Source of the DNA: Actinomadura rudentiformis
GTDB lineage: Bacteria; Actinomycetota; Actinomycetes; Streptosporangiales; Streptosporangiaceae
Assembly: GCF_008923185.1 (NCBI RefSeq)
Contig: NZ_WBMT01000018.1
Coordinates: forward strand, 1-64,000
DNA: 64,000 bases
Direction of reading: 5' to 3'
Shown: piece after piece, positions 10,750 to 38,001 of the stretch
Layout of the letters: each line of letters opens with the position of its first letter
Position numbering within the stretch: position 1 is the first letter of the stretch
Program-made: the position numbers and the translations under genes
The notes under the pieces: generated by a model
Told to the model about the DNA's origin: nothing
The model's input: the letters and a program-made list of their open reading frames with translations, nothing else
Databases searched by the model: none

Positions 10750-12518
10750 GCACCCCTGAACCGGCCACCACCCCTGAGGCGCCGGTGCGGCGTGTCGTCG
10801 GGCTGTTCCGCCCGTACCGGTGGAACCTGCTGTTCGTCGCCGTCCTCGTCGGCGCGACCTCGCTCGTGTCCCTGGTCAACCCGTTCCTGATCCGCGCGGT
10901 GCTGGACGTGGCGCTGCCCCAGGGGCGCACGGGCCTGCTGACCCTGCTGGCACTCGGCATGATCGTCGTGTCGGTCGCCAACAGCTCGTTCGGCGTCCTG
11001 CAGAGCTACGTGTCCACCAAGGTCGGCCAGCGGGTCATGCACGATCTGCGCGCCGCCGTCTACGCGCACCTGGAGCGCATGTCGCTGGCCTTCTTCACCG
11101 GGACCCGCACCGGCGAGGTGCAGTCGCGCATCGCCAACGACATCGGCGGCATGCAGGCCACCGTGACCACCACCGCGACGACGGTGGCGTCCAACCTGAC
11201 CATCGTGATCGCCACGGCCATCGCCATGCTCGTCCTCGACTGGCGCCTGGCGATGGCGTCGCTGGCGATGACGCCCTTCTTCGGCTGGCTGAGCCGCCGC
11301 ATCGGGAACGAACGCCGCCGCATCACCCGCGACCGGCAGCGCCAGCACGCGGCGATCTCCTCGATCGTGCAGGAGTCGCTGTCGGTGAGCGGCATCCTGC
11401 TCAGCCGCACGATGGGCCGCTCCCGCTCGCTGGTCGACACCTTCGCGGCCGAATCCGACAGGCTCGCCGACCTGGAGATCCGTTCCAGCATGGCGGGCCG
11501 CTGGAGCCAGTCGTGGATCCAGATCGTCATGTCCTCCATGCCGGCGGTGATCTACTGGGTGGCCGGGCTGACCGGGCCCGGCGACCATATGGCGATCTCC
11601 GTCGGCACGCTGGTGGCGTTCACCACGCTGCAGATGAACCTGTTCCGGCCGATGGTCCAGCTCCTGAGCGCCGGGGTGGAGATCCAGGCCTCGCTCGAAC
11701 TGTTCGCCCGCATCTTCGAGTATCTCGACCTGCCCACCGACATCGTCGAGCCGAGGCACCCCATCGCTCCGGTGGCCCTGCGCGGAGATCTCCGTCTGCG
11801 CGACGTCGGCTTCTCCTACGCCGGCGCGGAACGGCGCACGCTCAACGCCATCGACGTGACCGTTCCCGCCGGGCACAGCCTCGGGATCGTCGGGGAGACC
11901 GGGGCCGGCAAGACGACCCTCAGCCATCTCATCCCCCGGCTGTACGACGTGACGTCCGGCCAGGTGACCATCGACGGCGTCGACGTGCGGGACATGTCCT
12001 TCGACACGCTCGCCGCCGCGGTCGGAGTGGTGCCCCAGGAGACCTACCTGTTCCACGCCTCCGTCGCCGCGAACCTGCGGTTCGCCAAGCCCGACGCCAC
12101 CGATGAGGAACTCGCCGCCGCCGCGAAGACCGCACAGATCCACGACCACATCGAGTCCCTGCCCGACGGCTATCACTCGGTGATCGGCGAGCGCGGCCAC
12201 CGGCTGTCCGGCGGGGAGAAGCAGCGCCTGGCCATCGCCCGCGCCATCCTGCGCGACCCGCCCATCCTGGTCCTGGACGAGGCCACCAGCGCCCTCGACA
12301 CCCACACCGAGCGAGCCGTGCTGGCGGCCATCGACGCGGCGAGCGCGGGCCGTACCACGATCACGATCGCGCACCGGCTGTCCACCATCCGGGACGCCGA
12401 CGAGATCATCGTGCTGGACGCCGGGGAGATCGTCGAACGCGGCACCCACGGCGAGCTGCTCCGCCTCGGCGGCCGCTACGCGGCGATGATCGACCGCGAC
12501 GCCGCGGTCAGCGGGTGA
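10746..12518 (+). CDS. ABC multidrug exporter, fused membrane and ATPase domains
   Basis: 590-residue half-transporter of the MsbA/LmrA type. Six predicted membrane helices occupy about residues 15-320. The nucleotide-binding domain follows with Walker A GETGAGKTT, Q-loop VVPQETYLF, signature LSGGEKQRLAIARA, Walker B ILVLDEATSALD and H-loop IAHRLST. It probably works as a homodimer in the plasma membrane, exporting the finished compound and giving self-resistance. Translationally coupled to the 2,3-dehydratase and convergent with the methyltransferase at 12547. Confidence 0.93.
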   Translation: MSTPEPATTPEAPVRRVVGLFRPYRWNLLFVAVLVGATSLVSLVNPFLIRAVLDVALPQGRTGLLTLLALGMIVVSVANSSFGVLQSYVSTKVGQRVMHDLRAAVYAHLERMSLAFFTGTRTGEVQSRIANDIGGMQATVTTTATTVASNLTIVIATAIAMLVLDWRLAMASLAMTPFFGWLSRRIGNERRRITRDRQRQHAAISSIVQESLSVSGILLSRTMGRSRSLVDTFAAESDRLADLEIRSSMAGRWSQSWIQIVMSSMPAVIYWVAGLTGPGDHMAISVGTLVAFTTLQMNLFRPMVQLLSAGVEIQASLELFARIFEYLDLPTDIVEPRHPIAPVALRGDLRLRDVGFSYAGAERRTLNAIDVTVPAGHSLGIVGETGAGKTTLSHLIPRLYDVTSGQVTIDGVDVRDMSFDTLAAAVGVVPQETYLFHASVAANLRFAKPDATDEELAAAAKTAQIHDHIESLPDGYHSVIGERGHRLSGGEKQRLAIARAILRDPPILVLDEATSALDTHTERAVLAAIDAASAGRTTITIAHRLSTIRDADEIIVLDAGEIVERGTHGELLRLGGRYAAMIDRDAAVSG

Positions 12519-12565
12519 AACGCTCAGCGGGTGAATTCCAGAGTGTTCAGCGGGTGAACTCCAGA
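12508..12565. repeat. Triple short repeat at the convergent gene ends
   Basis: TCAGCGGGTGAA occurs at 12508, 12524 and 12547. The last two extend to 19 bases with one mismatch at a 23-base period. One copy ends the ABC exporter and another encodes the last residues and stop of the methyltransferase on the other strand, so the methyltransferase tail codons appear duplicated beyond its stop. It looks like a small slippage duplication. Confidence 0.75.
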
Positions 12566-13599
12566 ATGGAGCGTCCCGAGCCGGTGACGATGTTCTCCCG
12601 CAGCGAGAGCCCCGCGGTGGCCGCGAGCGTGCGGTACTGGTCGAGCGAACGCTCCTGCCCGCCGATGACGGCGAGCATCCGCAGGTCCATGGCGGTGGCC
12701 GCCGGCGAGGTCTCCTGTTCGGTGACGAGCTGTTCGATGACCAGCACCCGGCCTCCGGACCCCGTGGCCTCGGCGCAGCGGCGCAGGATCGTCTCCGCGG
12801 ACTCGTCGTCCCAGTCGTGGAGAACCCTCGACAGGACGTAGACGTCTCCATCGGCCGGCAGGGGAGTGAAGAAGCTCCCAGGGAAGAGGGTGCACCGGTC
12901 GGAGAGACCCGCCGCGGTGAGATGCTCCCGTCCCGCCTCAACGACGGAAGGAAGGTCGACGAGTGTTCCCCGAAGGGCGGGGTGCTTGGTGAGCAGGGCG
13001 GCCAGGAGCGTGCCCGTTCCGCCTCCGACGTCCACGACGTGTCCCACGTCCGACCAGTCGTACGCCGTGGTGACCTCGTCCGCCACGAACGAGACCTGCA
13101 CCGCCATCAGCGCGTCGAACGCCCGGCTGCGCTCGGGATCGGCCTCCAGATCGTCCCAGAACGTCCGCCCGAACATGTCCTCGTACACGGGCCGTCCGGT
13201 GCGCACGACCTGGAGCATTCCGGAGAGCGCCATGTCCGAACGGCCCAGCCCGCCGTCGATGTCCAGCCAGGGGGTCATGCCCCCGTCGCGCTGCCCGGTC
13301 AGCAGCAGGCGGGACAGGTCGGTCAGCGCGAAGACACCCGGCTCCGGTTGCGCGAAGACGCCTTTGGCGGCGAGGTGCCGCAACATCCGTTCCAAGGCGG
13401 CCGGATCGGCCCCGCATCGCTCAGCGAGCTCGCCGGGGCGCCGCGCACCGGCTTCGATCAGATCTGCCAGCCGCAATGTCGCGGCGGCTCGGATGGCGTG
13501 GGGCGTCACCAGGTCGGAGAGCGCGCGCAGCCGGGTCACCGGCTCCGCGTTCGCCCCGCCACCCGGCATGCCACCGGCTCGTGGAGCACCCATCGTCAT
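12547..13599 (-). CDS. O-methyltransferase of the DnrK/acetylserotonin family
   Basis: 350-residue SAM-dependent methyltransferase. It has an N-terminal winged-helix region, the canonical SAM loop VVDVGGGTGTLLAALL near residue 180, and VLSRVLHDWDDESAETILRRC containing the expected catalytic His-Asp. The start at 13599 overlaps the stop of the upstream oxidase by ATGA, showing coupling. Likely substrates are a polyketide phenol or a deoxysugar hydroxyl. Of the three methyltransferases of this fold in the cluster it has the most orthodox motifs, so true O-methylation is most likely here. Confidence 0.87.
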   Translation of the reverse strand: MTMGAPRAGGMPGGGANAEPVTRLRALSDLVTPHAIRAAATLRLADLIEAGARRPGELAERCGADPAALERMLRHLAAKGVFAQPEPGVFALTDLSRLLLTGQRDGGMTPWLDIDGGLGRSDMALSGMLQVVRTGRPVYEDMFGRTFWDDLEADPERSRAFDALMAVQVSFVADEVTTAYDWSDVGHVVDVGGGTGTLLAALLTKHPALRGTLVDLPSVVEAGREHLTAAGLSDRCTLFPGSFFTPLPADGDVYVLSRVLHDWDDESAETILRRCAEATGSGGRVLVIEQLVTEQETSPAATAMDLRMLAVIGGQERSLDQYRTLAATAGLSLRENIVTGSGRSILEFTR

Positions 13600-15065
13600 G
13601 TCCTTCCCGGCTGGGCGGTGTCGAGGTGGGCGAGGACCTGGTCGGCGGCTCTGCGTGCCGCGTTCATGCACTGGCCGATGCCGACACCGTCGTAGGCGGA
13701 GCCGCAGAGGGCAAGACCGGGGTGGTCGGCGACCTGGGCGCGGATCTGTCTGATCCGGTCGGGGTGCCCGACGGTGTACTGGGGCAGCGCGTCGTGCCAT
13801 CGCGTCACTCGCGTGGCCACCGGGTCACCGGTCACGCCGGTGGCCTCGGCCAGCTCACCCGCCGCCAGCGCCACGAGGTCGGCGTCGTCGCGTTGCAGCA
13901 GGTCGTCCTCGCCGATCCCGCCGGCCTGGCATCGCACGATCTCCACATCGCCGCCGGCCTGGTCGGCCATGTGTGACCACTTCACCGTCGAGAACGTGAC
14001 CGACCTGACCGCCCGCCCGTCCACCACCGGCACCCGGTAACCGGCCAGCCCCTGCTCGGCCGGCCCGCCCGCGAACGCCTTCCGGGGGTACGCGAGCGTG
14101 ATCATCGCGACGCTCGCGTACGCGATGCCGGCCAGCCCGGCACAGATCGGTGCGGTCCCGGGAACTCCGGCCAGCAGCTTGCTCGCGGCACCGGCGGGGA
14201 CGGCGAGGATGACGGCGTCCGCGGCGATGTCCTCTCCGCCGGCGGCCGAATCCACCGTCACCTGCCAGCCGTGCTCGCCGCGTGCGAGTTCGGTCACCGT
14301 GGTCCCGGTCCGCACGGCGGCGTCAGGGGAGGCGTCCAGCACGGCCGCGACCAGCGCACCGGGCAGCGAGCCCATCCCGCCGATCAGCGTGCCGAGCCCG
14401 CTGTGCAGCGCGGGAACGTCCGATCCCGGCTTCGGCACGAGTACCCCCGCGGCCTTGGCCAGCGACGCGAACTTGCGCGACGCCTTCGCGAGCGGCAGCA
14501 GCGTCGCCTCGAACGACAACTCGCTCGAACGGCCGGCACACATCTCGTGCAGGAACGGGTCGACCAGGCGGTCCACGACCTCCTGTCCGAACCGCGCGCC
14601 CACGTATTCCCCTACCGAGACGTCCCCGTCGCGGTCCGTCGGCGGCAGCACGAGGTCCTGCCGTGCCCGGGCCACTCCTTCATCGGACAGCACGCCCGAC
14701 TTTGCCAGCTCGTCCATGTCCGAGGGCACGCTCATGAAATGACCGTTGGGCAGCGGCCAAAGCCCGCCCCTGGTCCACGTCGCCACGGCCGCGGTGTCCG
14801 CCGAGACGAGCCGGTCGCCCAACCCCGCCTCGCCGATCATCCATTCGGTCTTGGGGCGCCACACCGCTTCGGCGCCCTCGTCCACCGCGACACCCGCGAC
14901 CTCCGACACGGCCAACTGCCCGCCGATCCTGGACGTTCCCTCAAGGACCGTCACCCGTACCGGCTCGTCTCGCAGCAGGAACGCCGCCGCCAGGCCCGCT
15001 ATACCGCCTCCCACGATCACCACGTGCGGCGCGCCGCTTCCCGGCCGCTGACCAGTGTCCGCCAT
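13596..15065 (-). CDS. HemG/HemY-type protoporphyrinogen-oxidase-like flavoenzyme
   Basis: 489-residue FAD amine-oxidase-superfamily protein. The start at 15065 follows a strong GAGGGAGGG and is followed by VVIVGGGIAGLAAAFLLRD, then TVLEGTSRIGGQL. The C-terminal FAD segment is LALCGSAYDGVGIGQCMNAA. Length and architecture match protoporphyrinogen oxidase (HemG, formerly HemY). A haem role inside a biosynthetic cluster is unlikely. A six-electron-type dehydrogenation of a pathway intermediate, possibly hydrazine or hydrazone to diazo, is speculation. It is coupled to the methyltransferase at 12547 and lies directly downstream of the acetyltransferase/lyase genes. Confidence 0.85.
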   Translation of the reverse strand: MADTGQRPGSGAPHVVIVGGGIAGLAAAFLLRDEPVRVTVLEGTSRIGGQLAVSEVAGVAVDEGAEAVWRPKTEWMIGEAGLGDRLVSADTAAVATWTRGGLWPLPNGHFMSVPSDMDELAKSGVLSDEGVARARQDLVLPPTDRDGDVSVGEYVGARFGQEVVDRLVDPFLHEMCAGRSSELSFEATLLPLAKASRKFASLAKAAGVLVPKPGSDVPALHSGLGTLIGGMGSLPGALVAAVLDASPDAAVRTGTTVTELARGEHGWQVTVDSAAGGEDIAADAVILAVPAGAASKLLAGVPGTAPICAGLAGIAYASVAMITLAYPRKAFAGGPAEQGLAGYRVPVVDGRAVRSVTFSTVKWSHMADQAGGDVEIVRCQAGGIGEDDLLQRDDADLVALAAGELAEATGVTGDPVATRVTRWHDALPQYTVGHPDRIRQIRAQVADHPGLALCGSAYDGVGIGQCMNAARRAADQVLAHLDTAQPGRT

Positions 15066-15144
15066 TTCGCACCCTCCCTCGTCCCTTGTCCTCGTCCTTT
15101 GCCGAACTCGTGTAATGGCACCCTGGCAGCAGCACCCATAACCC

Positions 15145-15153
15145 CGGTCGAAC
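15145..15153. promoter_or_regulatory. StrR-box half-site
   Basis: CGGTCGAAC fits the half-consensus CRGTYGAAC exactly, about 80 bases upstream of the oxidase start at 15065, but no matching left half lies at the 11-base spacing. It may be a weak site or chance. Confidence 0.3.
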
Positions 15154-15190
15154 ACCAGTGGAATGGAGCTTGGCCGACAGTCCAGTTTTG

Positions 15191-15592
15191 TTATGGGTTC
15201 AGCACCCAGGCGGAATTGTGTCGGGTGAAACCGAGGTGCGGATAGTAATCCGCCGCGGCGGGCGCCGACAGAAGCACGATCTTGGCCTGTGGCGCCTCTT
15301 TCTGTGTCGCGTCCATGAGGGCCCTTCCGATACCGGACCGCTGGTGCGCGCGGCTGACGGCGATATCGGAGAGATAGGTCACGTAGGAGAAATCGGAGAT
15401 GCTCCGTGCGATGCCCACGAGTTCACCGTCGATACGGCAGGTGATGAACAGGTTGGCGTTTCGGACCATCGCGGCCATGCGTCCGGTGTCCGCGATCGGC
15501 CGGCGTCGCCCCAGTCCCGATGACCGGTAGACCTCCAGCACCTCGTCCAGGTCCAGGTCCGTGCCGTTCTCGCGCTTAACGTCCCATGTCAC
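15191..15592 (-). CDS. GNAT N-acetyltransferase, FzmQ/KinN-like
   Basis: 133-residue GCN5-type acetyltransferase with the acetyl-CoA pyrophosphate loop HQRSGIGRALM and the C-terminal YYPHLGFTRH. In the fosfazinomycin and kinamycin pathways a small GNAT acetylates hydrazinosuccinate before a PurB-like lyase releases acetylhydrazine. The adjacent gene here is exactly such a lyase and overlaps this start by 17 bases, so the two are coupled. The family is visible in the sequence; the substrate is inferred from the cassette. Confidence 0.87.
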   Translation of the reverse strand: MTWDVKRENGTDLDLDEVLEVYRSSGLGRRRPIADTGRMAAMVRNANLFITCRIDGELVGIARSISDFSYVTYLSDIAVSRAHQRSGIGRALMDATQKEAPQAKIVLLSAPAAADYYPHLGFTRHNSAWVLNP

Positions 15593-16862
15593 GGAGGATT
15601 TCCAATCGCTTGAGGATCACGTCGTGGTGGACCAGGAAACGCTCCGGCGACAGCGACCCGGTCTCGATTCCCTGGGCTCTGAGCCGGGCGCCGAAATCCT
15701 CTCCGGAGGAGGTCGCGCCGTCGGCTGCGGCCTGGACCGCCCGGTAGGCCCGTTCCCGCTCGGTGCCGTCCTCCAGCAGATCGGCCAGCACCGCCGAGCT
15801 GTACGCCAGGCCGTTGGTCTGGTCGATGGCGCCCCGCATGCGTTCCGGGAACACCGAGAGAGCCGCCACCAGGTCCGCCGCCCTGGTGCACTGATAGTGC
15901 GCGACGATCATCGCGTCCGGGAGGACGACCCGTTCCACCGACGAGTGGGACAGGTCCCGCTCGTGCCAGAGCGCGACGTTCTCCAGCATCGTGCCCGCGT
16001 ACCCGCGCAGCAGCCGGGCCAGCCCGACCAGGCGCTCGCTGGTGGTCGGATTGCGCTTGTGCGGCATGGCGCTCGACCCCTGGTAGGCGACCGTCCGGTG
16101 TTCCTCCACCTCGCCGACCTCGGTACGCGACAGCAGTCGCACCTCGGTGGCGATCTGCTCGACGCAGGCGCCGAGCGTCGCGATCGCCTGCAGGAGCTGA
16201 GCATGCCGGTCGCGGGCCACGACCTGGCTCGGCGCGGGCTCCACGTCGAGTCCGAGTTCACCGCACACGTACTTCTCGACGAAGGGATCGATCAGGGCGT
16301 AGGTCCCGACGGACCCCGAGATCGTGCCCACCGCGACCTCCGTGCGCGCGGCCTCCAGGCGCCGTATGGAGCGGTCGACCGCGAAGGCGAACCCGGCGAG
16401 CTTGTGGCCGAACGTCGTCGGCTCGGCATGCATCCCGTGGGTACGCCCGATGCACGCCGTGTCCCAGTGCTCGACCGCCTTGTCCGCCAGCACGCCGCGA
16501 AGCCGTGCCACTGCGCGGAGCAGGACGTCGCAGGCACGGGCGAGGTGGTGTCCCAGCGCCGTGTCCACGAGGTCATAGCTCGTCATGCCCAGGTGAACCC
16601 ACCGGGCGGAGTCGTCAGGGATGTCCTCGCAGAAGGCCGCGAGGAAGGAAAGAATCTCGTGGTCGCGCTGGAGTTCGAGCTCGGCCACGCGCGCGGCGGA
16701 CGGCGCCTTGGCACGCCGGATGTCGGCCACCGCGCCCGGCGGGACCCGGCCGAGCATCGCCTGTGCCTGAGACGCAAGGCATTCCACCTTGGCCCAGGTG
16801 TCGTAGCGGGCCTGATCAGACCAGATCTCCGCCATCTCCGGCAGTGAATAGCGGGCAATCAT
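15576..16862 (-). CDS. Adenylosuccinate-lyase-like enzyme, FzmR/KinM-like
   Basis: 428-residue member of the fumarase/aspartase superfamily, closest in look to PurB: it opens MIARYSLPEMAEIWSDQARY and has the signature GSSAMPHKRNP near residue 260 and TSYDLVDTALG near 95. In the kinamycin and fosfazinomycin pathways the homologue eliminates fumarate from N-acetylhydrazinosuccinate to free acetylhydrazine. A housekeeping PurB is unlikely because it sits between a GNAT gene and a divergent amidase/ligase operon sharing a StrR box. Related nitrosuccinate lyases (CreD type) are an alternative, but the N-terminus is PurB-like. Confidence 0.88.
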   Translation of the reverse strand: MIARYSLPEMAEIWSDQARYDTWAKVECLASQAQAMLGRVPPGAVADIRRAKAPSAARVAELELQRDHEILSFLAAFCEDIPDDSARWVHLGMTSYDLVDTALGHHLARACDVLLRAVARLRGVLADKAVEHWDTACIGRTHGMHAEPTTFGHKLAGFAFAVDRSIRRLEAARTEVAVGTISGSVGTYALIDPFVEKYVCGELGLDVEPAPSQVVARDRHAQLLQAIATLGACVEQIATEVRLLSRTEVGEVEEHRTVAYQGSSAMPHKRNPTTSERLVGLARLLRGYAGTMLENVALWHERDLSHSSVERVVLPDAMIVAHYQCTRAADLVAALSVFPERMRGAIDQTNGLAYSSAVLADLLEDGTERERAYRAVQAAADGATSSGEDFGARLRAQGIETGSLSPERFLVHHDVILKRLEILRDMGR

Positions 16863-16972
16863 TCTGTGGGGTCCTTCCGCTGGCGTGACCGGCAGTCGCA
16901 GGATATGAATCGCCGTGGTGCGATGTATAGACGGCTCTTGTCGTACACCTTGTCTTCTCCGTCCCCGCCTTC

Positions 16973-17000
16973 GTTCAAGTGCGGTTCTCCGCAGTTGAAC
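16973..17000. promoter_or_regulatory. StrR/NovG-type operator with 10-base spacer
   Basis: GTTCAAGTG-N10-CAGTTGAAC: the right half is perfect, the left has one mismatch, and the spacer is one base short of the consensus. It lies between the leftward lyase (starting at 16862) and the rightward amidase. Its position argues that the amidase starts downstream of 17000. Confidence 0.72.
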
Positions 17001-17111
17001 GAGCCGTCGGCCCGGTTGGAGCGGAGGTGTTTATCCGAGGTTGCTTCCCCGGCCTCGATTCTCGTGCTCCGCCACTTGCACGAGATTCGGCCGGTGCCAT
17101 GTAGTGGTCTT

Positions 17112-18587
17112 GTGCCAGTCTCCACCGCAGCGAGAAATAGGCAGCAGATCTGCCGCGACATTCGTGAGACAAAGCTGTCGTTTCTGCAGGGCAATGTCAC
17201 GGTCGCCGAGCACGTGCAGACCGTGCTCGACGCCATCCACGAAACCGACGCCGAGCTCGGCGCGTTCGTCGCGGTCGCCGGCGCCGGTGCGCTGCTGGAG
17301 GCGGAGGCGGCCGACCGGCTCCTCGCCGATCTCGGCGAGGCGGCCTTCCAGGACCGGCCGCTGCTCGGGGTCACGGTGTCGGTCAAAGACCTCATCCAGA
17401 CGCGCGACCTGCCCACGCGGAGAGGGTCGTTGCTGCCGAACCGGCGCGCCGCCGCGGACGCCCCCGCCGTGGCCCGGCTCCGGGCGGCGGGAGCGATCGT
17501 GGTGGGGAAGACGGCCACGTCGGAGCACGGCTGGAGCGCGAGCACGGTGAGCAGGGTGGCCGGCCCCACCCGCAACCCCTGGGCGCGCGACAGGTCCGCC
17601 GGGGGCTCCAGCGGCGGGTCCGCGGCCGCGGTGTCGGCGGGGCTGTGCACCGCGGCGGTCGGCACCGACGGGGCAGGATCGGTCCGTATCCCGGCGGCCT
17701 TCTGCGGCGTGGTCGGGTTCAAGCCGTCCTACGCCCGGATTCCCTACGTGCCGCCCTGCGCCGAGCGGCTGGCGCACGTGGGGCCGCTCGCGCGGAACGT
17801 GGCCGATGTCGCCGAGCTCATGCCGGTGCTGGACGGTCCGGACCACCGAGACCCGGATTCGGTGACCGCTCAGTCTCTGGGCGCCATTTCGGCTGGGGGC
17901 GCCACGTTGTCTGGGGGCGCCACGTTGTCTGAGGGCGCCATGGCCCCCGGCTCGCTGCGGATCGGCTGGATCGAGTTCCCTCGGACGTCCGGCGAGGTCC
18001 GGCGGGTCACCGAGGGAATCCTGCCGGTGCTGACCGGGCTGGGACACCGCGTCGACCGCATCGAGGTGCCGTTTCCCGATCCGTACGCGTCGCTGGTGGA
18101 CGTCCTCGCCGCAGCCGAGGCCAGCGGCACCGAGCCGGAAGACGAACCGTGGTGCGACGAGGGCCGGGCCGCGATCATCCGGTACGGGCGCTCCCTGAGC
18201 GGCGCGGCAGTGATGCGCGCCGAGGAGTCGCGGCTGACCCTGCGAGCGCGGCTGGGCTCGGTGATGGACGACTACGACCTGCTGGCCATGGCGACCGTCC
18301 CCGTCGAGCCGTTCGCCGCCGAGATGATCGCCCCCTCCTGGGCCGCCGACCCCCAAGACCTGCTGTGGCTGGCGTGGTCGCCCGCCACCTACCCGTTCAA
18401 CATCACCGGCCAGCCGGCCCTGTCCCTGCCCGCCGGCGTGACGGCCCGTGGACTGCCGGTCGGGCTTCAGCTGGTGGGCCGGGTCGGCGACGACGACCTG
18501 GTGCTCGCGGCCGCCGGCCGCATCGAGGCGCGGCTCGACCTGACGATGGCGCCGCCGGGCACTGACACGGAAGGGAAAGAATCATGA
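17112..18587 (+). CDS. Amidase-signature hydrolase, FzmO/KinK-like
   Basis: 491-residue amidase-signature enzyme. The Ser-cisSer-Lys triad is visible: Lys in VSVKDLIQT, the Ser-rich GGSSGGSAAAVSAGL and the nucleophile region GTDGAGSVRIPAAFCGVVG. In fosfazinomycin and kinamycin biosynthesis an amidase of this kind deacetylates acetylhydrazine to hydrazine. The frame is open from 16866, but the GTG at 17112 is preferred because an operator lies at 16973-17000 and the earlier residues do not look like the family. An 18-base tandem repeat at 17895-17930 inserts GGATLS twice in a surface loop. The stop overlaps the next start (ATGA). Confidence 0.87.
   Translation: MPVSTAARNRQQICRDIRETKLSFLQGNVTVAEHVQTVLDAIHETDAELGAFVAVAGAGALLEAEAADRLLADLGEAAFQDRPLLGVTVSVKDLIQTRDLPTRRGSLLPNRRAAADAPAVARLRAAGAIVVGKTATSEHGWSASTVSRVAGPTRNPWARDRSAGGSSGGSAAAVSAGLCTAAVGTDGAGSVRIPAAFCGVVGFKPSYARIPYVPPCAERLAHVGPLARNVADVAELMPVLDGPDHRDPDSVTAQSLGAISAGGATLSGGATLSEGAMAPGSLRIGWIEFPRTSGEVRRVTEGILPVLTGLGHRVDRIEVPFPDPYASLVDVLAAAEASGTEPEDEPWCDEGRAAIIRYGRSLSGAAVMRAEESRLTLRARLGSVMDDYDLLAMATVPVEPFAAEMIAPSWAADPQDLLWLAWSPATYPFNITGQPALSLPAGVTARGLPVGLQLVGRVGDDDLVLAAAGRIEARLDLTMAPPGTDTEGKES
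17895..17930. repeat. 18-base tandem repeat inside the amidase gene
   Basis: Two exact 18-base copies (17895-17912, 17913-17930) followed by a partial third, in frame, encoding a repeated Gly-Ala-Thr-Leu-Ser unit. Probably replication slippage in a tolerant loop. Confidence 0.85.
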
Positions 18588-20080
18588 TTTCCAGGCCATG
18601 GTCCCTGCACGGCGAGGAGGGGGCCGTCGGGCGCCCGTCGTTCGTGGCCGAGTTCGGACTCTGGGACGACCGGCAGGCAGCCGCGGCCGAGCGGATCGAG
18701 GCGGAGCTGGACGAGGTCGATCTCGTCCGGGTGGCGTTCTGCGACCCGCACGGCCTGGCCCGGTCGAAGACCGTGCCCGCGAACGTCTTCCGCACGGTGC
18801 TGAGCAACGGCATGGACTTCAGCGCCGGGCCGTTCCTCTTCGACACCGGCCATGCCGTCGCGGTCGACTTCCAGACCGATCCCGGCCTGGGGATCGGCGA
18901 ACTGCTCGGCGCGGGCGACTTCGTGCTCGTTCCGGACCCGCGCACGTTCCAGGTGCTGCCCGGGATCGAGCCGAGGACCGCCTGGGTGCTCGGGAACGAG
19001 TACCTGCGCGACGGCACACCGCACCCGCTTGCCTCTCGCGACGTCCTGCGCCGCGTTTGCGCCCGGTACGCCAAGCACGACCTGGACCCGGTCATCGGGT
19101 TGGAGATCGAGTGGTACCTCACCCGGCTGACCGGCGGGCCGCCGGGCAATGCGGGAAACGGATTCGGCCAGCAGGGGCCCGCTCCTGCGGTCGAGGCCGT
19201 GAACCCCGGGTACCAGTTCAACCTCGACGGCCACTACGACTCAGTGGCCGAGATCGCGGATCCGTTGACCGCGATGCTCAGCGTGCTCGGCCTGCCGCTG
19301 CGCTCGATGGAGCACGAGTCGGGTCCCGGGCAGCTGGAGACCACCTTCGGCCCGATGCTGGCCTTGGACGCGGCGGACGCGATGCTGCTGTTCCGCACCC
19401 AGGTCAAGCAGTTCTGCAGGCGTCGCGGCATGCACGCGTCCTTCATGACGCTGCCGCGCCTGGACAGTTTCGACTCCAGCGGGTGGCACCTGCACCAGTC
19501 CGTGACGAGCACGAAGACCAACCGCAACGTGTTCGCGCCAGAGGGCAACGCGCAGGACGCGATGTCGCCTGAGGGAGAGGCCTACGTCGCGGGCCTGCTG
19601 TCACATGCGCGTGAACTGTGCCTGCTCAGCGTTCCGACCGTGAACGGCTACCGGCGCCTGGGCCCGGAGTTCACGCTGTCCCCGACCTCGGTCAACTGGT
19701 GCTTCGAGGACCGCACCGCGATGGTGCGGGTGCTCAGCGGCGGCAGCTCGACGCACGTCGAGAACCGGATCGGGGAACCGTGCGCGAACCCCTACCTGGT
19801 CATCGCATCCCAGCTCTACGCGGGCCTGGAGGGACTGACCGCCGGCACGCCCGCCGACCGGCCCGCCTACCCGGAGCTGCCAAGGTCGCTGCGCGAGGCA
19901 CTGGACGCGTTCCGCGAGAGCGGCCCCGCCGCAGACCTGCTCGGAACGCCCCTCAAGACATGCCTGACGAAATTGAAGGAGAGCGAGGTGTCGCGCTTCG
20001 ACACATGGCGCGCGGAGCAGCGGCCCGCCGCCGACGAAGTGACCGAATGGGAGCACCGCGAATATTTCGGTGTCTTCTGA
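18584..20080 (+). CDS. Glutamine-synthetase-like ligase, FzmN/KinL-like
   Basis: 498-residue glutamine-synthetase fold, with an N-terminal beta-grasp region (about 35-135) and a catalytic domain containing GLEIEWYLTRL, NPGYQFNLDGHYD, SGWHLHQSV and NGYRRLGPEFTLSPTSVNWC. In kinamycin and fosfazinomycin the homologue joins hydrazine to the side-chain carboxylate of glutamate, giving gamma-glutamylhydrazine, the carrier form. Translationally coupled to the amidase upstream (ATGA) and followed by the ferredoxin. The family is certain. Hydrazine as acceptor is inferred from the surrounding acetyltransferase, lyase and amidase genes. Confidence 0.9.
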   Translation: MISRPWSLHGEEGAVGRPSFVAEFGLWDDRQAAAAERIEAELDEVDLVRVAFCDPHGLARSKTVPANVFRTVLSNGMDFSAGPFLFDTGHAVAVDFQTDPGLGIGELLGAGDFVLVPDPRTFQVLPGIEPRTAWVLGNEYLRDGTPHPLASRDVLRRVCARYAKHDLDPVIGLEIEWYLTRLTGGPPGNAGNGFGQQGPAPAVEAVNPGYQFNLDGHYDSVAEIADPLTAMLSVLGLPLRSMEHESGPGQLETTFGPMLALDAADAMLLFRTQVKQFCRRRGMHASFMTLPRLDSFDSSGWHLHQSVTSTKTNRNVFAPEGNAQDAMSPEGEAYVAGLLSHARELCLLSVPTVNGYRRLGPEFTLSPTSVNWCFEDRTAMVRVLSGGSSTHVENRIGEPCANPYLVIASQLYAGLEGLTAGTPADRPAYPELPRSLREALDAFRESGPAADLLGTPLKTCLTKLKESEVSRFDTWRAEQRPAADEVTEWEHREYFGVF

Positions 20081-20122
20081 GTGCACCGCAGTCCGCGCCA
20101 CCCGGAAGAGAGGAGAACAGAC

Positions 20123-20458
20123 ATGCCGTGGGGGAAGGACACACCCGCCGTGGCCAGCGAGGCGCGCGCGGATCGGATCGCGGAGCGGTCTCGCAATGAA
20201 CAATGGAAGAAGCCGCCGCGTCGTATCGAGACGTCAGAGTGCATAACGTGCGACCTGTGCCTGCGTAACTGCCCTCCCGAGTTCGGGGCCATCTTCGATC
20301 GCGGGCTCGACGTCGTGATAATTCCGGAACTGTGCTCCGGTTGCCCGGTGTGCGTGATGGTGTGTCCCGTCGACTGCATTTACGTGGACGAGGAATGGAC
20401 GCCCACCGAGCCCGGCCTCTGGGATCACGTCGGCCTGACAGTGGAGGGGGCTGCGTGA
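20123..20458 (+). CDS. 2[4Fe-4S] ferredoxin-like electron carrier
   Basis: 111 residues with two complete 4Fe-4S motifs: CITCDLCLRNCP and CSGCPVCVMVCP, each C-x2-C-x2-C-x3-CP. A positively charged N-terminal extension of about 45 residues precedes them. The ATG at 20123 has a GAGAGGAGA ribosome site. The stop overlaps the start of the 630-residue protein (TGATG), so the two products are made together and probably interact. It suggests that low-potential electrons are needed for a step in this cassette, perhaps reduction on the way to the N-N bond. Confidence 0.9.
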   Translation: MPWGKDTPAVASEARADRIAERSRNEQWKKPPRRIETSECITCDLCLRNCPPEFGAIFDRGLDVVIIPELCSGCPVCVMVCPVDCIYVDEEWTPTEPGLWDHVGLTVEGAA

Positions 20459-22350
20459 TGACCTTGCCCACCACGCCTGACACGACGCTTTCCCGGAAGG
20501 CGGCGCTGGCGAAAGCGCGGCAGAGCCGCCGGCCGAGCAGGCTCGGCCGGCGGGCGGGAGCGACGGCCGAGCCGGACTACCCGGTTTCAGAGGAGGCCGG
20601 GTTCCCGGGACTGCTGAAACGGGCCTGGCAGGAGGCGACCGCCGCTCCAGACCTGCCTTCGGCTGTGGACACGCTGCTCACGCTCGCCGGGCATGTCCCG
20701 GCGGACATCCAGCTGCGGGCGCTCCCCGCGCCGGAGGAGTGCGCTCTGAAGGTCCTCGTCGGCAGGTCATGGCGAACGACCGGCCGTGGCGCCCCTCCTG
20801 ACCGCACCACGGGGGACGGCGCTCCGGCGGCGTTCCTCGGCGAGATCGGGTTGAACACGAGCGGCCGCGTCGTCATCCGCGTTCCGTCGAGGCCGCCGCT
20901 GGCCGGCGAAGAGGACCTCGTGGGCGGTGTGCTGCGCGTTCCGTGGTCCGCCCTCGACCTGGCGGACTACCGGACCGAGCTCGCCGCCGCCACCGAACGG
21001 CTGTGCGCCTCGGCTGCAGACTGCCGCGAGTGGCTGGCGGCGGCCGGTCCAGACGGTCGCCGGGACATGCTGGAGGGCCTGAAGGAGGCGGCCCTTCGCA
21101 CGGCGCCGTTCGTGCTGTACTCCGGCGGCCGGCAGTACACCAACTTCCGCGATCGGAACACGCTGACGGGCAAGACGCTGTGGCCGGGCCACCCGGATTG
21201 CGCGCTCAGCAGCCTGACGACGGTGCCGCTCGAGCTGTGGTCGGACAGCGACGTCCTGATGGTCGTCTGCCTCACGCTGTTGGTGCGGTCGGCGGGGTTC
21301 GCCCGGATCGAGGAGGCCAACGGCACCCAGCTCACGACCGACCACCTGGCCTACCTTCTCGAACGGACGCGCCGGGTCTACAACGAGGTACCCGGCGGGC
21401 AGCAGGTGCCGCTCGCGCCCTCGACCCGGGTGGCGGAGCTCAGCGACCTCGCGGAGGCCGTCGCCCGGCGGCGGCGGGAGATCGCCCTGAAGGTCCAGCT
21501 CTATCGCGAGATCCACGGCCCGTTGATGCACAAGGTCGAGCGGATCGCCGATGCCCCCGCCGGCGACGCGATGCGGCAGGAGACGGAGGTCTGCGCGCGG
21601 GTGCGCGACCGGCTCCCGGTCTCCGGTGACACGCTCGCGGAGCTGGGCGCCGCCATCGAGGCGTCGCCCGGATGGCTGGCCGAGCCGCACGGCGAGTTCC
21701 GGACGGGCCTGGAGTCCCTGGTGTACGAGACCGTGCGCGCGGCGACGGCGGCCTTCGACGCCGACTTCGCGATGAGCCGGGGGATGCGGTCGCTCACCGC
21801 GCTGGTCGAGGCGCTGCGCGGGCAGGACTGGCCCAAGATCGCTACTTGGGACCTGCCGCACTTCTTCTGCTGCGTCGTGCCCGCGCCTCACGCCCGGCGC
21901 TACTTCGACGATTCACGTACGCACCTGGCCGACACCGCGTGGTCCATCTCCGCGCGGATGCAGTACAACTCATGGCACTTCCTGGTCGGCAACCTCCCGA
22001 AGGCCCCGGAGATCGTGGCCCGTGACTACTTCGTCCCGCCCTCGATCCCGGATGTCGCGTACTACTCCGATCAACACCATCACGGTCACGTCGCCGCCAG
22101 GGTGCGCTTCAGCATCCGCAGCCCGCAGGCGGTGGAGATTCTGGGACGCATGTTCGACGGATTCGTGGATCTGCGGCTGCTGCGCTGCGAAGGGCTGCCG
22201 TTCGGCGAGCAGGACCTGCTGGCCGCACATCGTGTCTCGGGGTTCATCGCGAAGGCCACCGGCCTCGCCGCCGCGCTGGTCGCCGGCGGCGCGGACATCG
22301 AGATCACGGCCTTCGACTCCCAGTGGCACTGGGAGACGATCACTCGGTAG
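20458..22350 (+). CDS. Unrecognised 630-residue protein of the hydrazine-type cassette
   Basis: No family recognised. Soluble-looking, no signal peptide or clear membrane helix. The N-terminus is basic (about 1-45), then a mixed alpha/beta region with FVLYSGGRQYTNFRDRNT (near 220) and TVPLELWSDSDVLMVVCLTL. A helical middle follows (KVQLYREIHGPLMHKVERIA). The C-terminal third is rich in potential metal ligands: LPHFFCCVVPAPHARRYF, MQYNSWHF and YYSDQHHHGHV. It is made in a TGATG-coupled unit with a 2[4Fe-4S] ferredoxin, directly after the glutamylhydrazine ligase. A redox or metal-dependent nitrogen-chemistry enzyme is the obvious guess, unproven. It ends at a strong bidirectional hairpin. Confidence 0.8.
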   Translation: MTLPTTPDTTLSRKAALAKARQSRRPSRLGRRAGATAEPDYPVSEEAGFPGLLKRAWQEATAAPDLPSAVDTLLTLAGHVPADIQLRALPAPEECALKVLVGRSWRTTGRGAPPDRTTGDGAPAAFLGEIGLNTSGRVVIRVPSRPPLAGEEDLVGGVLRVPWSALDLADYRTELAAATERLCASAADCREWLAAAGPDGRRDMLEGLKEAALRTAPFVLYSGGRQYTNFRDRNTLTGKTLWPGHPDCALSSLTTVPLELWSDSDVLMVVCLTLLVRSAGFARIEEANGTQLTTDHLAYLLERTRRVYNEVPGGQQVPLAPSTRVAELSDLAEAVARRRREIALKVQLYREIHGPLMHKVERIADAPAGDAMRQETEVCARVRDRLPVSGDTLAELGAAIEASPGWLAEPHGEFRTGLESLVYETVRAATAAFDADFAMSRGMRSLTALVEALRGQDWPKIATWDLPHFFCCVVPAPHARRYFDDSRTHLADTAWSISARMQYNSWHFLVGNLPKAPEIVARDYFVPPSIPDVAYYSDQHHHGHVAARVRFSIRSPQAVEILGRMFDGFVDLRLLRCEGLPFGEQDLLAAHRVSGFIAKATGLAAALVAGGADIEITAFDSQWHWETITR

Positions 22351-22442: not shown

Positions 22443-23459
22443 CTACCGGGTCATGCAGTTCTCCGCGGCGTTCTGGTAGCGCAGTTCGCCGGTCAGGACC
22501 TTCCTGTAGAACGACCAATAGGACGATTCAACCGTCGCGATGCGCTCCTGGATGAGGCCGTGCAGTTCGGGTATCCGCGCCATCGGCACGCCTTGGTGGA
22601 AGTGGTGGGCCGTGTGGAGGTCGTTGCCGTTGGTGAACCAGCGGGCGAACCGGCCCGCGCGGATCGTACGCGTGTTGGTCAGCACGTTCGGATCGGTCTG
22701 GGTGTTGAGGCCGAAGTGCTCCGGCAACTCGATCAGGAAATGCGTCGGCTCGGCGACCAGGAGCGTCGGCAGCACCCATGCGAACAGGATCAGCGGGCTC
22801 CGGGTGACGACGGTGAACGCCACCGCGATCACCAGGACCACCGCGAACAGCAGGTACTCGGTACGGATCTTCTTCGCGGCGGAGGTCTTGGTCACCCCGG
22901 AAACGGTGCGGCCCAGTAGGCTGCGCCCGATGTCGGTGAACACCTCCCCGTAGCGGCCGAGGTGGAAGCAGCCGCGGAGGAACCCGGGCACGCTGTCGAG
23001 ATCATGGAACCGGTAGTTGAAGAACTCCTGGTTCCGCGGGGTGCCGAGGTAGGCGTGATGGCGCAGGTGCTCGTACTTGTAGTGCCAGAACGAGCTCAGC
23101 ATCGGAACGCCGCAGAGGAAGCCCACGAGCCGGTTCAGCCGGCGGCTGCCGTACGCGTGCTCGTGCAGGCACTCGTGCTGCAGCTCCACCAGGTGCGCGT
23201 AGGCCAGACCGAGCACCAGTCCGGCCACGACGATCACCGGCCAGGTGGGGAACAGCGCCATCGCGACCCAGCCGGCGACCACCAGCGTCATGGCCAGGCC
23301 GAACTTGAGGCTGAAGACGCCGGGACGCTTGACGAAGATCTCCTTCGGCAGTTCGCGGCGCCGGTCCTTGCCCTGGACCGGCGCAAGGATCACGTCCACG
23401 GAACCGTAGAGAAGGCGGTCCTCGGCAGGTTTCGAAGCGACTCTTTCCGGTGCCATCAC
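22443..23459 (-). CDS. Membrane fatty-acid-desaturase-like di-iron enzyme
   Basis: 338-residue integral membrane desaturase/hydroxylase. All three histidine boxes are present: HECLHEH (95-101), HLRHH (131-135) and HTAHH (282-286), with hydrophobic helices at about 52-90 and 205-240. Such enzymes use a di-iron centre and an electron carrier to desaturate, hydroxylate or N-oxygenate. It is the last gene of a six-gene leftward operon containing the ring-opening oxygenase. It could modify the polyketide, or perform nitrogen oxidation with the nearby ferredoxin. No acyl-lipid context suggests a normal fatty-acid role. Confidence 0.88.
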   Translation of the reverse strand: MMAPERVASKPAEDRLLYGSVDVILAPVQGKDRRRELPKEIFVKRPGVFSLKFGLAMTLVVAGWVAMALFPTWPVIVVAGLVLGLAYAHLVELQHECLHEHAYGSRRLNRLVGFLCGVPMLSSFWHYKYEHLRHHAYLGTPRNQEFFNYRFHDLDSVPGFLRGCFHLGRYGEVFTDIGRSLLGRTVSGVTKTSAAKKIRTEYLLFAVVLVIAVAFTVVTRSPLILFAWVLPTLLVAEPTHFLIELPEHFGLNTQTDPNVLTNTRTIRAGRFARWFTNGNDLHTAHHFHQGVPMARIPELHGLIQERIATVESSYWSFYRKVLTGELRYQNAAENCMTR

Positions 23460-23483
23460 GTCGTCCTTTCATGTTCAGCAGAG

Positions 23484-24770
23484 CTACACCCGGTCGACCG
23501 GCTGCAGTTCGTCCAGGAAATGGAAGAGGCTGCGGCTGTTGATCGAGTCCGCGGCGACCGCGTCGGCGAACACCTCGGCGACCGCGGCCACCGGGTCGCC
23601 CAGCCGCCGGGCCGCGTCGGCCGCCTCCGCGCGCCGTTCGGCGAAGAGCCGCTGGTACGGCTGCCATCGCAGCTCGGACAAGCCGGTCGGCGGCCGGCCC
23701 GGGTTCGGCTCGGCGGTCCGGGACGCCGGCCGGGTGAACGGCATGACGGCGCGTCTGCCCAGCCCGTCGCGGCGCAGCACGAGAAAGCAGGTGTAGAAGT
23801 ACCGGGCGCCGAGCGACTCCGCGTGCGCGTCCAGGATCTCCAGCAGCCTGTCCGCTTGCAGATCGGGGTTGTGCGGAGCGGACCACCGCGCCGAGACGCC
23901 GCTGCGCACTCGCATGGGCAGCCGTTCCTCGACGGTGACCAGCACCGAGGCGTCCGCCGCGCACTCGTCGATCTCGGCGACCGCGAACGGTCCGGCCTCG
24001 TCGCCGATGCTCTCGAACCGCATGACGAGCACGCCGTCCGGGAGCAGGGCGCGCCGGCTCGCGGTGAAGACGGCGCGGATGACCTGCCTGCCGTCGGGCC
24101 CGCCGTTCCCGGCGGGGAAGTAGCGCAGCCCCGGCGGTACGGGGGCACCCGGCGGATTGGCGGCGATCATCTCGTAGCCGCCGCCCTCCAGCGCGTCGGC
24201 CGCGTCCATGCACTGTACGTCGATCCGGTCGTCGAGGCCGTTGAGGGCGGCGGCCGCGCGGGTCGCGGCCACGCACGCCCGGCTGATGTCGATCGCGGTC
24301 ACCCGGAAGCCGCCGGCGGCCATGGCGACGCTCGTGAACCCCGAGCCCGATCCGACGTCGAGCGCGCGCCCGCCGCCCCGGTGGCTCAGCAGCCGGTCGA
24401 CGATCTGCATGCCGTCCTTCCCGACATAGACCCCGCAGCGTTCGGGACGGTCATGGTGGTCGCCGACCATGAAGAGGTCCCGGGCGGACGTCAGGTGGAA
24501 CGGGACCGAGGGCCCGAGCCCGAGTCCGTCGAGCGCCTTGCGGAGGTCGGCCGGCACCGCCGCGCCGGCCTCACCGAGATGCAGCAGTTCGTACGCCGGA
24601 TCGTCGTGGGCGACCGGGGGCAGCCACGGCTCGTGGATGAGCCCCGCCGCCTGCCGGTAGCTCTCCAGCGTGAGCGGCCAGCCGTGGCGGCGGAGCGTCG
24701 CGGACAGCCGTGACCAGTCTTCGGCCGCGACCTCGCCGAGGCGCGGTCCCGCCCCGTTGGATGCGTCCAT
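23484..24770 (-). CDS. HemK/PrmC-like class I methyltransferase with altered NPPY motif
   Basis: 428-residue SAM-dependent methyltransferase. An N-terminal domain of about 150 residues is followed by the Rossmann core LDVGSGSGFTSVAMAAGG (near 170) and AANPPGAPVPPG where HemK/PrmC and N6-adenine methyltransferases have NPPY. The final aromatic that positions the target nitrogen is thus replaced by glycine. HemK-type enzymes methylate amide or amine nitrogens, so an N-methyltransferase or a repurposed fold is possible. It lies between the desaturase and the AlpJ-like oxygenase in one operon, with gaps of 24 and 43 bases. Confidence 0.82.
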   Translation of the reverse strand: MDASNGAGPRLGEVAAEDWSRLSATLRRHGWPLTLESYRQAAGLIHEPWLPPVAHDDPAYELLHLGEAGAAVPADLRKALDGLGLGPSVPFHLTSARDLFMVGDHHDRPERCGVYVGKDGMQIVDRLLSHRGGGRALDVGSGSGFTSVAMAAGGFRVTAIDISRACVAATRAAAALNGLDDRIDVQCMDAADALEGGGYEMIAANPPGAPVPPGLRYFPAGNGGPDGRQVIRAVFTASRRALLPDGVLVMRFESIGDEAGPFAVAEIDECAADASVLVTVEERLPMRVRSGVSARWSAPHNPDLQADRLLEILDAHAESLGARYFYTCFLVLRRDGLGRRAVMPFTRPASRTAEPNPGRPPTGLSELRWQPYQRLFAERRAEAADAARRLGDPVAAVAEVFADAVAADSINSRSLFHFLDELQPVDRV

Positions 24771-24813: not shown

Positions 24814-25551
24814 TCAGGCCACCACGGGTTGTGGCGCGGACCGGCTGTGGACGACCCGATAGGTGTTCCAGTCGAGCGCGGTCGTCAGCGAGTTCCGCTT
24901 GTCCTCGGACTTGCGGCGTGCGGCGGGCTGCTCGGCCCCGGCCATCGCGCGGAACGTGTCGTACGACTGCTTGCCGTCCCACTGCGAATAGACCGCCACG
25001 AAGTCGTTGTCGCTGCCGATGGCCGTGAGGCCGCCGTCTCCGGGACCCCGGGAGCGGATGCCCCGCAGCACGCTCTGCGACCGGTAACCCGGCACGTCCA
25101 CCAGCCACTCGTGGGCCGCCCCGAGCGTGGTGATCAGATCGGTCTGGTCGGCGGGCTCCACCCCGATGATCTCCAGTACCGTGTAGTCGTCGCGGTCGGG
25201 GGAGATCTCGGTGGCGTCGCCCTGTGACGGGTGTCGCCGGCTCAGCTCGACCTCGGTCTGCATCAGCCGGATGAACGTCGTGATCTCCTGGAAGACCGGC
25301 ACCGTGCGGTGCTTGAACTCATCACCCGCGTACCGTGATTCCAGGTTCTGCTTTCCGCGCCACTGAATGAAGTTCGCGGTGCCCAGCCTGTCCTGGCCCC
25401 GGTGCACGGTGCTGGAGATCCAGCCGGGGAACGCCGCGGTGTCGACGATCGCCCGCATCTCGCTGACCAGCCGGTCGACTCGTTCCGACGTGTCGGTCTT
25501 GAACAGATTGATGACCGTCAGGTACCCGTCCTCGGGATTGATGTACGGCAT
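24814..25551 (-). CDS. AlpJ/JadG/GilOII-like ring-B-cleaving oxygenase
   Basis: 245 residues built of two antibiotic-biosynthesis-monooxygenase-like ferredoxin folds (about 1-105 and 125-245). The opening GYLTVINLFKTDT, the TAAFPGWISSTVHRGQDR and GTANFIQWRG segments, and the HRTVPVFQEITTFIRL stretch match my memory of the GilOII/JadG/AlpJ family. These oxidatively open ring B of dehydrorabelomycin on the way to gilvocarcin, jadomycin, kinamycin and fluostatin. This is the clearest sign that the product is a rearranged angucycline rather than an anthracycline. The start at 25551 sits 29 bases after the stop of the upstream hydroxylase. Confidence 0.87.
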   Translation of the reverse strand: MPYINPEDGYLTVINLFKTDTSERVDRLVSEMRAIVDTAAFPGWISSTVHRGQDRLGTANFIQWRGKQNLESRYAGDEFKHRTVPVFQEITTFIRLMQTEVELSRRHPSQGDATEISPDRDDYTVLEIIGVEPADQTDLITTLGAAHEWLVDVPGYRSQSVLRGIRSRGPGDGGLTAIGSDNDFVAVYSQWDGKQSYDTFRAMAGAEQPAARRKSEDKRNSLTTALDWNTYRVVHSRSAPQPVVA

Positions 25552-32849: not shown

Positions 32850-32985
32850 CACGTTCTCCTCATGCCTAATGGCTCTGTCCTGCACGATCTCTGTCTGCAC
32901 AATCTCCGCCATGCCGGTTGACGGCCGGTCGAGAATCCGTCGCGCTCGGCTGGGTTGGTCGACTGGGTTGGCCGTCTGGGCGGGG

Positions 32986-37944: not shown

Positions 37945-38001
37945 GGGTCACATAAGAATCATGGTGATCCTCGTAGACGTTCTCTATTGCTGGGAGTCCG
38001 C

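Follow-up and report, generated by a model that had tools for sequence, protein, structure and literature searches.

In the described routes to N-N bonded natural products, KinJ and FzmP are heme enzymes without recognisable motifs; paired with a ferredoxin, they form hydrazinosuccinate by reducing nitrite onto L-aspartate (PMC12154649). In the kinamycin (kin) and fosfazinomycin (fzm) pathways, acetylhydrazine is first loaded on glutamate and deacetylated afterwards (PMC6133997, PMC10477347), and AlpH couples the glutamylhydrazine to the polyketide without S-adenosylmethionine (SAM) (PMC10477347). Papers are cited here by PMC number. Below we analyse the first 64 kb (hereafter the window) of contig C10 (NZ_WBMT01000018.1, 285,130 bases) of Actinomadura rudentiformis, whose genome of 10.7 Mb is 97% complete; genes were called with a codon-usage script. 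We hold it very likely, at a probability of about 0.88, that a gene cluster in the window directs the synthesis of a glycosylated diazobenzofluorene related to kinamycin and lomaiviticin. This judgement is based on the observed gene content, synteny, homology and conserved catalytic residues, from which all reactions and the product are predicted.

The core of the cluster is a set of six hydrazine-cassette genes of the kinamycin/lomaiviticin type, located by gene calls and family scans at 15191-22350 in two divergent arms. On the reverse strand are a GNAT acetyltransferase and a PurB-like lyase, followed by a gap and then, on the forward strand, by an amidase, a glutamine-synthetase-like (GS-like) ligase, a ferredoxin and a 630-residue heme enzyme. 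All these reading frames are open, and the gap (16863-17213) measures 351 bases with 17214 taken as the start of the amidase, whose frame is open from 16866. For comparison we use 31 relatives, including 11 genomes as stretches of 40-80 kb and 20 of 65 further loci with flanks of at most 10 kb, in which a missing gene is no proof of its absence. The relatives were selected for carrying the heme enzyme, so its presence in all 31 (56-81% identity) is by construction. Among them, counterparts are found for the ferredoxin in 31 (63-84% identical), the ligase in 29 (58-86%), the amidase in 27 (61-81%), the lyase in 25 (63-86%) and the GNAT protein in 23 (65-90%). Because the same genes recur across these relatives, the grouping is not a matter of chance. 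The initial annotation, made from the letters alone, had described the GNAT protein, lyase, amidase, ligase and ferredoxin as contiguous, which coordinates and families bear out (15191-20458). Its range of 13596..22350 does include these five enzymes, but the first gene in it (13596-15065) is a protoporphyrinogen-oxidase-like flavoprotein and none of the five; the enzyme set was named correctly, while the heme enzyme (20458-22350) and an AlpH orthologue (29646-30674) were overlooked. It listed hydrazine between acetylhydrazine and gamma-glutamylhydrazine, but the free compound is unlikely to be the chief carrier, because glutamate loading precedes deacetylation in kin and fzm (PMC6133997, PMC10477347).

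The heme enzyme has no match in Pfam or NCBIfam. Eleven positions of KinJ are named in the available text of PMC12154649 (C468, M498, H504, H541, N501, K356, R570, R497, R496, R551 and R550), and the window protein matches nine of them at a constant offset of +3, the offset itself being derived from this match and not from an alignment with KinJ. The two mismatches, R496 and R550, seem to be alternative numbers for R497 and R551, since that paper uses both. The nine matching positions are invariant in all 11 rows of an alignment of the window protein with those of 10 of the 15 other matching genomes, from which the broken frame of Actinomadura livida and four distant proteins were omitted. Judged by these conserved residues, the product of 20458-22350 is a KinJ/FzmP-type heme enzyme. 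The A. livida gene (G248:C9) is split over two frames in the assembly, by decay or sequencing error.

For the lyase and the ligase, an origin in primary metabolism has to be considered, and the initial annotation had named best matches in such clades as evidence that would speak against it. Our analysis does not point that way. The ligase groups in a single clade with 30 ligases of KinJ-bearing loci, with support of 98/97 against the five GS paralogues of the genome, to which it is only 27-34% identical. With 26 lyases of KinJ-bearing loci the lyase shares 63-86% identity, compared with 43% for the genome's own PurB-like protein. A reading of this lyase as the nitrite-releasing CreD/FzmL was also considered and rejected, as it reaches 125 bits with NF052556 (cut-off 650) against 396 bits with the PurB model, and its gene neighbours and identity indicate KinM/FzmR.

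Beside the cassette, the product of 29646-30674 matches AlpH (PDB 8h3t) with 374.7 bits, leading the next entry (227.7 bits) by 147 bits. All five sites at which mutation impairs AlpH activity are kept (M174, K266, H267, H270 and D271, corresponding to M156, K248, H249, H252 and D253 in the window), and 9 of the 12 AlpH contacts named in the available text of PMC10477347 are identical. An AlpH-type gene accompanies the cassette in 22 of the 31 relatives, and an AlpJ-type gene in 21. Two matches of the window's AlpJ-type protein, PDB 5f9p and 9kdp, are labelled anthrone oxidase-like protein and anthrone monooxygenase, and we take them to be AlpJ-family proteins; similarly, 6j0z, labelled angucycline-like polyketide oxygenase, is presumably AlpK. 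Cassette, AlpH, AlpJ, AlpK-type oxygenase and type II polyketide synthase (PKS), by which we recognise a diazobenzofluorene cluster, are thus all present. With an AlpH orthologue and oxygenases of the AlpJ family and the FlsO1/AlpK type following the cassette, a diazobenzofluorene is the most likely product. The benzofluorene context that the initial annotation had deduced from an AlpJ-like oxygenase is in this way extended by FlsO1/AlpK- and AlpH-type proteins, and the deoxy-aminosugar genes it mentioned are recovered as a DegT aminotransferase, a 2,3-dehydratase and a glycosyltransferase. Taken with the ligase clade, these genes argue for the glycosylated diazo- or hydrazine-bearing benzofluorene proposed there. 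An O-methyltransferase-like protein at 12547-13569 was tried as AlpH and rejected, because it prefers PDB 3i53 and lists AlpH far down; another such protein (6190-7173) has its nearest kin in Salinispora pacifica (70%).

The pathway would then run as follows. The heme enzyme and the ferredoxin would reduce nitrite onto L-aspartate to form hydrazinosuccinate, which the GNAT protein would acetylate and the PurB-like lyase would cleave to free acetylhydrazine. The ligase would place acetylhydrazine on glutamate, and the amidase would strip the acetyl group to leave glutamylhydrazine. Meanwhile the type II PKS and cyclases would make an angucycline, to be contracted to a benzofluorene by the AlpK- and AlpJ-type oxygenases. 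The AlpH orthologue would join glutamylhydrazine to this scaffold, and loss of the glutamyl group with oxidation would give the diazo group; for the glutamyl removal, the protein of 35474-36139 is a candidate, its likeness to Alp1W not being drawn from a direct sequence comparison. Finally one deoxysugar of the 4-amino type would be attached.

The left end of the cluster lies on another contig. The first 127 bases of the window are the last 127 bases of contig C8, and positions 1-88 recur at 1526-1613, as an identical 3' stretch of two neighbouring flavin adenine dinucleotide (FAD) oxygenase genes (1-1471 and 1503-2957), which would explain the assembly break at the window start. The C8 end carries the genes that lie left of this point in Actinomadura sp. 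GC306, and in A. livida and A. fibrosa as far as those stretches reach. The spacing there is nearly equal, the first oxygenase of GC306 lying 7.5 kb from RmlA-ACP. These genes encode a carboxyltransferase, a biotin carrier, a biotin carboxylase, an RmlB-type dehydratase and an aldo/keto reductase, besides regulators named by sequence reading. Among them is also the RmlA-ACP fusion (C8:289982-291136), in which a glucose-1-phosphate thymidylyltransferase (NTP_transferase, 228 bits) is followed by an acyl carrier protein (ACP; PP-binding, 26.4 bits, cut-off 20.8) in one protein. Motif and tblastn searches find no further ACP in the window and the C8 end, and none inside the window. The same fusion is seen at L061:418-1581, L031:12319-13482 and L030:7067-8329. 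At least five of the 341 family genomes have it at full length, all with the host's genus code, a lower bound counted among the matches listed, above about 342 bits. No match covers both the RmlA and the ACP half in any of 14 other KinJ-bearing genomes. One further contig (G275:C23, L200) has the RmlA-ACP left end in a genome without a heme-enzyme match, and stops just past an AraC-type gene, where the window's own assembly breaks too.

Of the known systems close to this cluster, that of lomaiviticin is represented here by 100 kb of Salinispora pacifica CNR114 (L168-L172), a lomaiviticin-type locus known to us from its genes alone, which we compared with the window and the C8 end. Lomaiviticin itself, or a near analogue that is dimeric and propionate-primed, is an unlikely alternative product. 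Up to 40490, most window genes do have counterparts in the Salinispora locus, with identities of 56-83% for the better ones; among them are the hydrazine cassette, the AlpH-, AlpJ- and AlpK-type genes, aromatase, ketoreductase, cyclase, C26 amidotransferase, aminotransferase (69%), sugar ketoreductase (72%), 2,3-dehydratase, glycosyltransferase (56%), protoporphyrinogen-oxidase-like gene and exporter. The ketosynthases, however, are just 68-70% and 58% identical. The Salinispora locus has no match to 22443-24770, 40517-40960 or the C8 carboxylase genes, only 30% to 7251-7901, and for 12547-13569 a 45% match that belongs to another gene's counterpart; it has one oxygenase against two at the window start, and a stand-alone ACP after the ketosynthases plus a second one, unlike the RmlA-fused single ACP here. 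Its extras are an acyltransferase, an LnmK-like protein, an NmrA-family gene whose product we use as the Lom19 counterpart, a second glycosyltransferase, a DUF3050-like protein and further sugar genes. When its 12 proteins without a clear partner were searched by tblastn in the window and the C8 end, just two gave matches, namely the second ACP and the second glycosyltransferase, in both cases to genes already counted, the latter thus hitting the same single window glycosyltransferase. The acyltransferase, LnmK-like and NmrA proteins gave none, nor did a 3,5-epimerase (labelled by reading) and an Epimerase-family sugar protein. The LnmK-like gene presumably has the propionyl-starter role in lomaiviticin (lom) biosynthesis, and the earlier remark that propionyl-starter genes are lacking, unlike in lomaiviticin, holds for the C8 end as well. 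Because the acyltransferase/LnmK-like pair and the NmrA gene are missing, we infer an acetate rather than a propionate starter and, less surely, a monomeric product, which the gene content weakly suggests. Dimerisation had earlier been ascribed to Lom19 in a proposal, but fluostatin dimers form spontaneously (PMC4506494, PMC5970136).

Two other explanations concern the cassette itself. It might feed a hydrazide or another N-N compound of the fosfazinomycin or negamycin kind, the angucycline cluster being a neighbour by chance. KinJ-type enzymes do occur in many contexts (PMC12154649), and 9 of the 31 relatives have no AlpH-type match within the stretch compared; but the AlpH- and AlpJ-type genes accompany the cassette in 22 and 21 of the 31, as counted above, and AlpH couples glutamylhydrazine to this scaffold (PMC10477347), so we regard this explanation as very improbable. 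Alternatively the cluster is silent or starved of nitrite, leaving a non-diazo benzofluorene or a stealthin-type shunt product. Profile searches of the genome for CreD and NarG indeed find no nitrite-supply gene, and in kinamycin producers alpH and alp2F mutants yield stealthin C, the alpH mutant also seongomycin (PMC10477347, PMC12181624). On the other side, no reading frame of the cassette is interrupted, the heme enzyme and AlpH retain their named residues, and the CreDE genes are missing from most KinJ genomes (PMC12154649), which makes this outcome improbable too.

Several points nevertheless weigh against a diazobenzofluorene cluster as reconstructed here. No CreD-type nitrosuccinate lyase exceeds the family cut-off in the 97%-complete genome (best 483 of 650 bits), nor does any NarG (41.5 of 1084 bits), assimilatory nitrate reductase not having been searched for and PF13454 not being diagnostic of CreE. 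Three AlpH contacts, F157, M177 and V314, are replaced by Y, I and I (PMC10477347). The lyase passes the curated cut-off for adenylosuccinate lyase (TIGR00928, 396 against 326 bits), so family models alone would name it PurB. Its tree does not resolve a single cassette clade, which appears in 31% of bootstrap trees with a long outgroup branch; this tree left out two very distant Lyase_1 proteins of the genome (L001, L002) and kept as "other" four nitrosuccinate-lyase-like rows from other loci, a label guessed from length and identity. The junction of C8 and C10 is indicated by the 127-base overlap, the first 88 bases of which are repeated at 1526, and by synteny. A missing NmrA gene is no proof of a monomer, because fluostatin-type dimers form without an enzyme (PMC5970136). 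In addition, the original kin, lom and fzm proteins entered the comparison through PDB entries only, likeness being otherwise by family or description.

With regard to nitrite, the lyase on contig C1 that gives the 483 bits was rejected as CreD, since its neighbours resemble a protocatechuate operon by sequence reading, without a family scan. Six of the 11 relatives given as longer stretches have a DUF3050/haem-oxygenase-like gene (L028:18186-18995 and counterparts), which in the two gene orders inspected, those of A. fibrosa and Actinoallomurus soli, separates ligase from ferredoxin. The protein is a possible candidate for nitrite supply or N-oxidation; the Salinispora locus has a similar one, and tblastn finds no match in the window and the C8 end. 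The protoporphyrinogen-oxidase-like flavoprotein beside the cassette is the second of its kind in the genome, 50% identical to the copy on contig C44, with counterparts in 8 of the same 11 relatives and in S. pacifica. It might help to supply heme for the heme enzyme or might act as a pathway oxidase.

Table 1. Features of the predicted diazobenzofluorene cluster in the window
Feature	Position	Strand	Evidence and putative role
DegT aminotransferase for deoxysugar	3963..5219	+	PF01041 363 bits; 69% to Salinispora counterpart
Gfo/Idh-like sugar 3-ketoreductase candidate	5107..6138	-	72% to Salinispora counterpart; family label from sequence reading
EryCIII-type glycosyltransferase, only one seen	7942..9108	-	PF06722, PF21036
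Nucleoside diphosphate (NDP)-hexose 2,3-dehydratase	9361..10749	+	PF03559 504.7 bits
ATP-binding cassette (ABC) exporter	10785..12518	+	ABC_membrane, ABC_tran
Protoporphyrinogen-oxidase-like flavoprotein	13596..15065	-	TIGR00562 195.9 bits, cut-off 97.85
GNAT acetyltransferase, KinN/FzmQ-like	15191..15592	-	Acetyltransf_10/7/1 (Pfam); putative hydrazinosuccinate N-acetylation
PurB-like lyase, KinM/FzmR-like	15576..16862	-	Lyase_1 171 bits; putative release of acetylhydrazine and fumarate
Amidase, KinK/FzmO-like	17214..18587	+	PF01425 314 bits; putative deacetylation of glutamyl-acetylhydrazide
GS-like ligase, KinL/FzmN-like	18584..20080	+	PF00120 209 bits; putative acetylhydrazine loading on glutamate
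2[4Fe-4S] ferredoxin, KinI-like	20081..20458	+	Fer4_21 39 bits; two CX2CX2CX3CP motifs; putative electron donor
KinJ/FzmP-type heme enzyme	20458..22350	+	Residue match to KinJ positions; putative N-N joining of nitrite and L-aspartate
Fatty-acid-desaturase-like (GntB-like) hydroxylase, inserted	22443..23399	-	PF00487 123.4 bits
SAM methyltransferase, inserted	23484..24770	-	PF05175
AlpJ/JadG/GilOII-family oxygenase	24814..25551	-	PDB 5f9p E 6.7e-64, 9kdp E 8.4e-62; putative ring opening
FlsO1/AlpK-type FAD oxygenase	25581..27131	-	PDB 7vwp FlsO1 E 5.2e-207; 6j0z E 5.1e-202
FAD oxygenase fused to two-stretch polyketide aromatase/cyclase	27118..29562	-	FAD_binding_3, Rng_hyd_C, Polyketide_cyc in one frame
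AlpH orthologue	29646..30674	-	PDB 8h3t; predicted glutamylhydrazine-polyketide coupling (diazo installation)
Ketoreductase-type short-chain dehydrogenase/reductase	30868..31653	+	adh_short
TcmI-type polyketide cyclase	31710..32039	+	PF04673 140.5 bits
Alpha/beta hydrolase, candidate Lom6-like	32073..32912	-	Abhydrolase_6; 77-78% to Salinispora counterpart, Lom6 itself outside comparison
Peptidase C26/amidotransferase, candidate Alp1W counterpart	35474..36139	-	PF07722 188 bits; 60% to S. pacifica stretch (tblastn)
Ketosynthase alpha, minimal type II PKS	37987..39273	+	ketoacyl-synt N and C domains
Ketosynthase beta (chain length factor)	39270..40490	+	ketoacyl-synt N and C domains

The two inserted genes sit between the heme enzyme and the AlpJ gene, a gap of about 60 bases in GC306, and neither has a match in the 31 relatives. 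Among loci L024-L128 and L144-L195, the methyltransferase has no match outside its own locus, and all matches of the hydroxylase lie in loci chosen on its account, none being in L024-L128. Relatives of the hydroxylase occur in 10 of 341 family genomes, the host included, and five stretches around them (L191-L195) show no match to the heme enzyme or the methyltransferase. The methyltransferase, possibly a sugar N-methyltransferase, resembles gentamicin methyltransferases over 74 residues only (E 1e-7). For the hydroxylase, which has no PDB match at E 1, a role in diazo formation finds no support, the hydrazone oxidase Dob3 being a ferritin-like diiron enzyme of another family (PMC13061610). The oxygenase-aromatase fusion (27118-29562) is also present in A. 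fibrosa and A. bangladeshensis, while by gene calls the two parts are split in GC306, A. livida, WMMA1423, Actinoallomurus soli, Thermomonospora and S. pacifica.

Among the diazo natural products, of which fewer than 30 are on record (PMC13061610), kinamycins and lomaiviticins are potent leads against tumours. Actinomadura-type strains with this group of clusters are a place to seek a simpler glycosylated member, and the group allows tests of the genes that set starter unit and dimerisation, and of the origin of nitrite in strains without CreDE. Should the RmlA-ACP fusion function as a single protein, it would link polyketide and sugar supply in an unusual manner. Tentatively, and with clearly less confidence than in the compound class, we picture a diazobenzofluorene not yet described, monomeric and primed with acetate, that bears one 4-aminodeoxysugar and is tailored by the products of the two inserted genes. 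The only ACP of its PKS would be tethered to the nucleotidyltransferase opening the sugar pathway, so that aglycone and sugar might be supplied in fixed proportion or place.

On the whole, the cluster is a relative of the lomaiviticin cluster and may be undescribed. The available text of a review of Actinomadura metabolites to 2022 (PMC10951976) does not mention kinamycin, lomaiviticin, benzofluorene, diazo or hydrazine, and "angucycl-" occurs in it four times, in the passages seen never about such a compound; nor do the papers listed by the literature searches (titles and abstract openings, subscription papers being mostly uncovered) report such an Actinomadura product. The suggestion of a possibly new lomaiviticin/kinamycin relative is thus upheld as to relationship, while its novelty is lower than claimed, because close clusters exist in many genomes: several genomes of Actinomadura, Actinoallomurus and Thermomonospora share the type, and the Salinispora locus has the greater part of it. 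Compared with the kinamycin cluster (kin/alp), the window has the KinI-KinN set, AlpH, AlpJ and AlpK by family and probably the same acetate starter, and differs in its sugar genes and in the lack of a CreD-type lyase over cut-off in the genome, the kin sequences being compared via PDB entries only. Fluostatins are not known to carry a sugar. A contig of the fluostatin producer Micromonospora rosaria DSM 803 (L084) shares the heme enzyme (63%), ligase (64%) and ferredoxin (74%), with no AlpH- or AlpJ-type match on the 14-kb stretch compared. The fosfazinomycin cluster has the five-gene FzmN-R set by function, as described in PMC6133997, but a phosphonate scaffold and no in-cluster ferredoxin according to the available text of PMC12154649. 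In the whole-cluster synteny comparison, which the initial annotation had proposed, counterparts of most genes appear in S. pacifica, and a closely similar order in the Actinomadura relatives. Among these, A. livida (strain JCM 3387), GC306 and A. fibrosa (strain LMG 29177) have no counterpart of 22443-24770; A. fibrosa has the DUF3050 gene and no exporter in the stretch compared, and A. livida the broken heme-enzyme frame. These three resemble the window in having products mostly 69-92% identical, a closely similar gene order and the same RmlA-ACP fusion.

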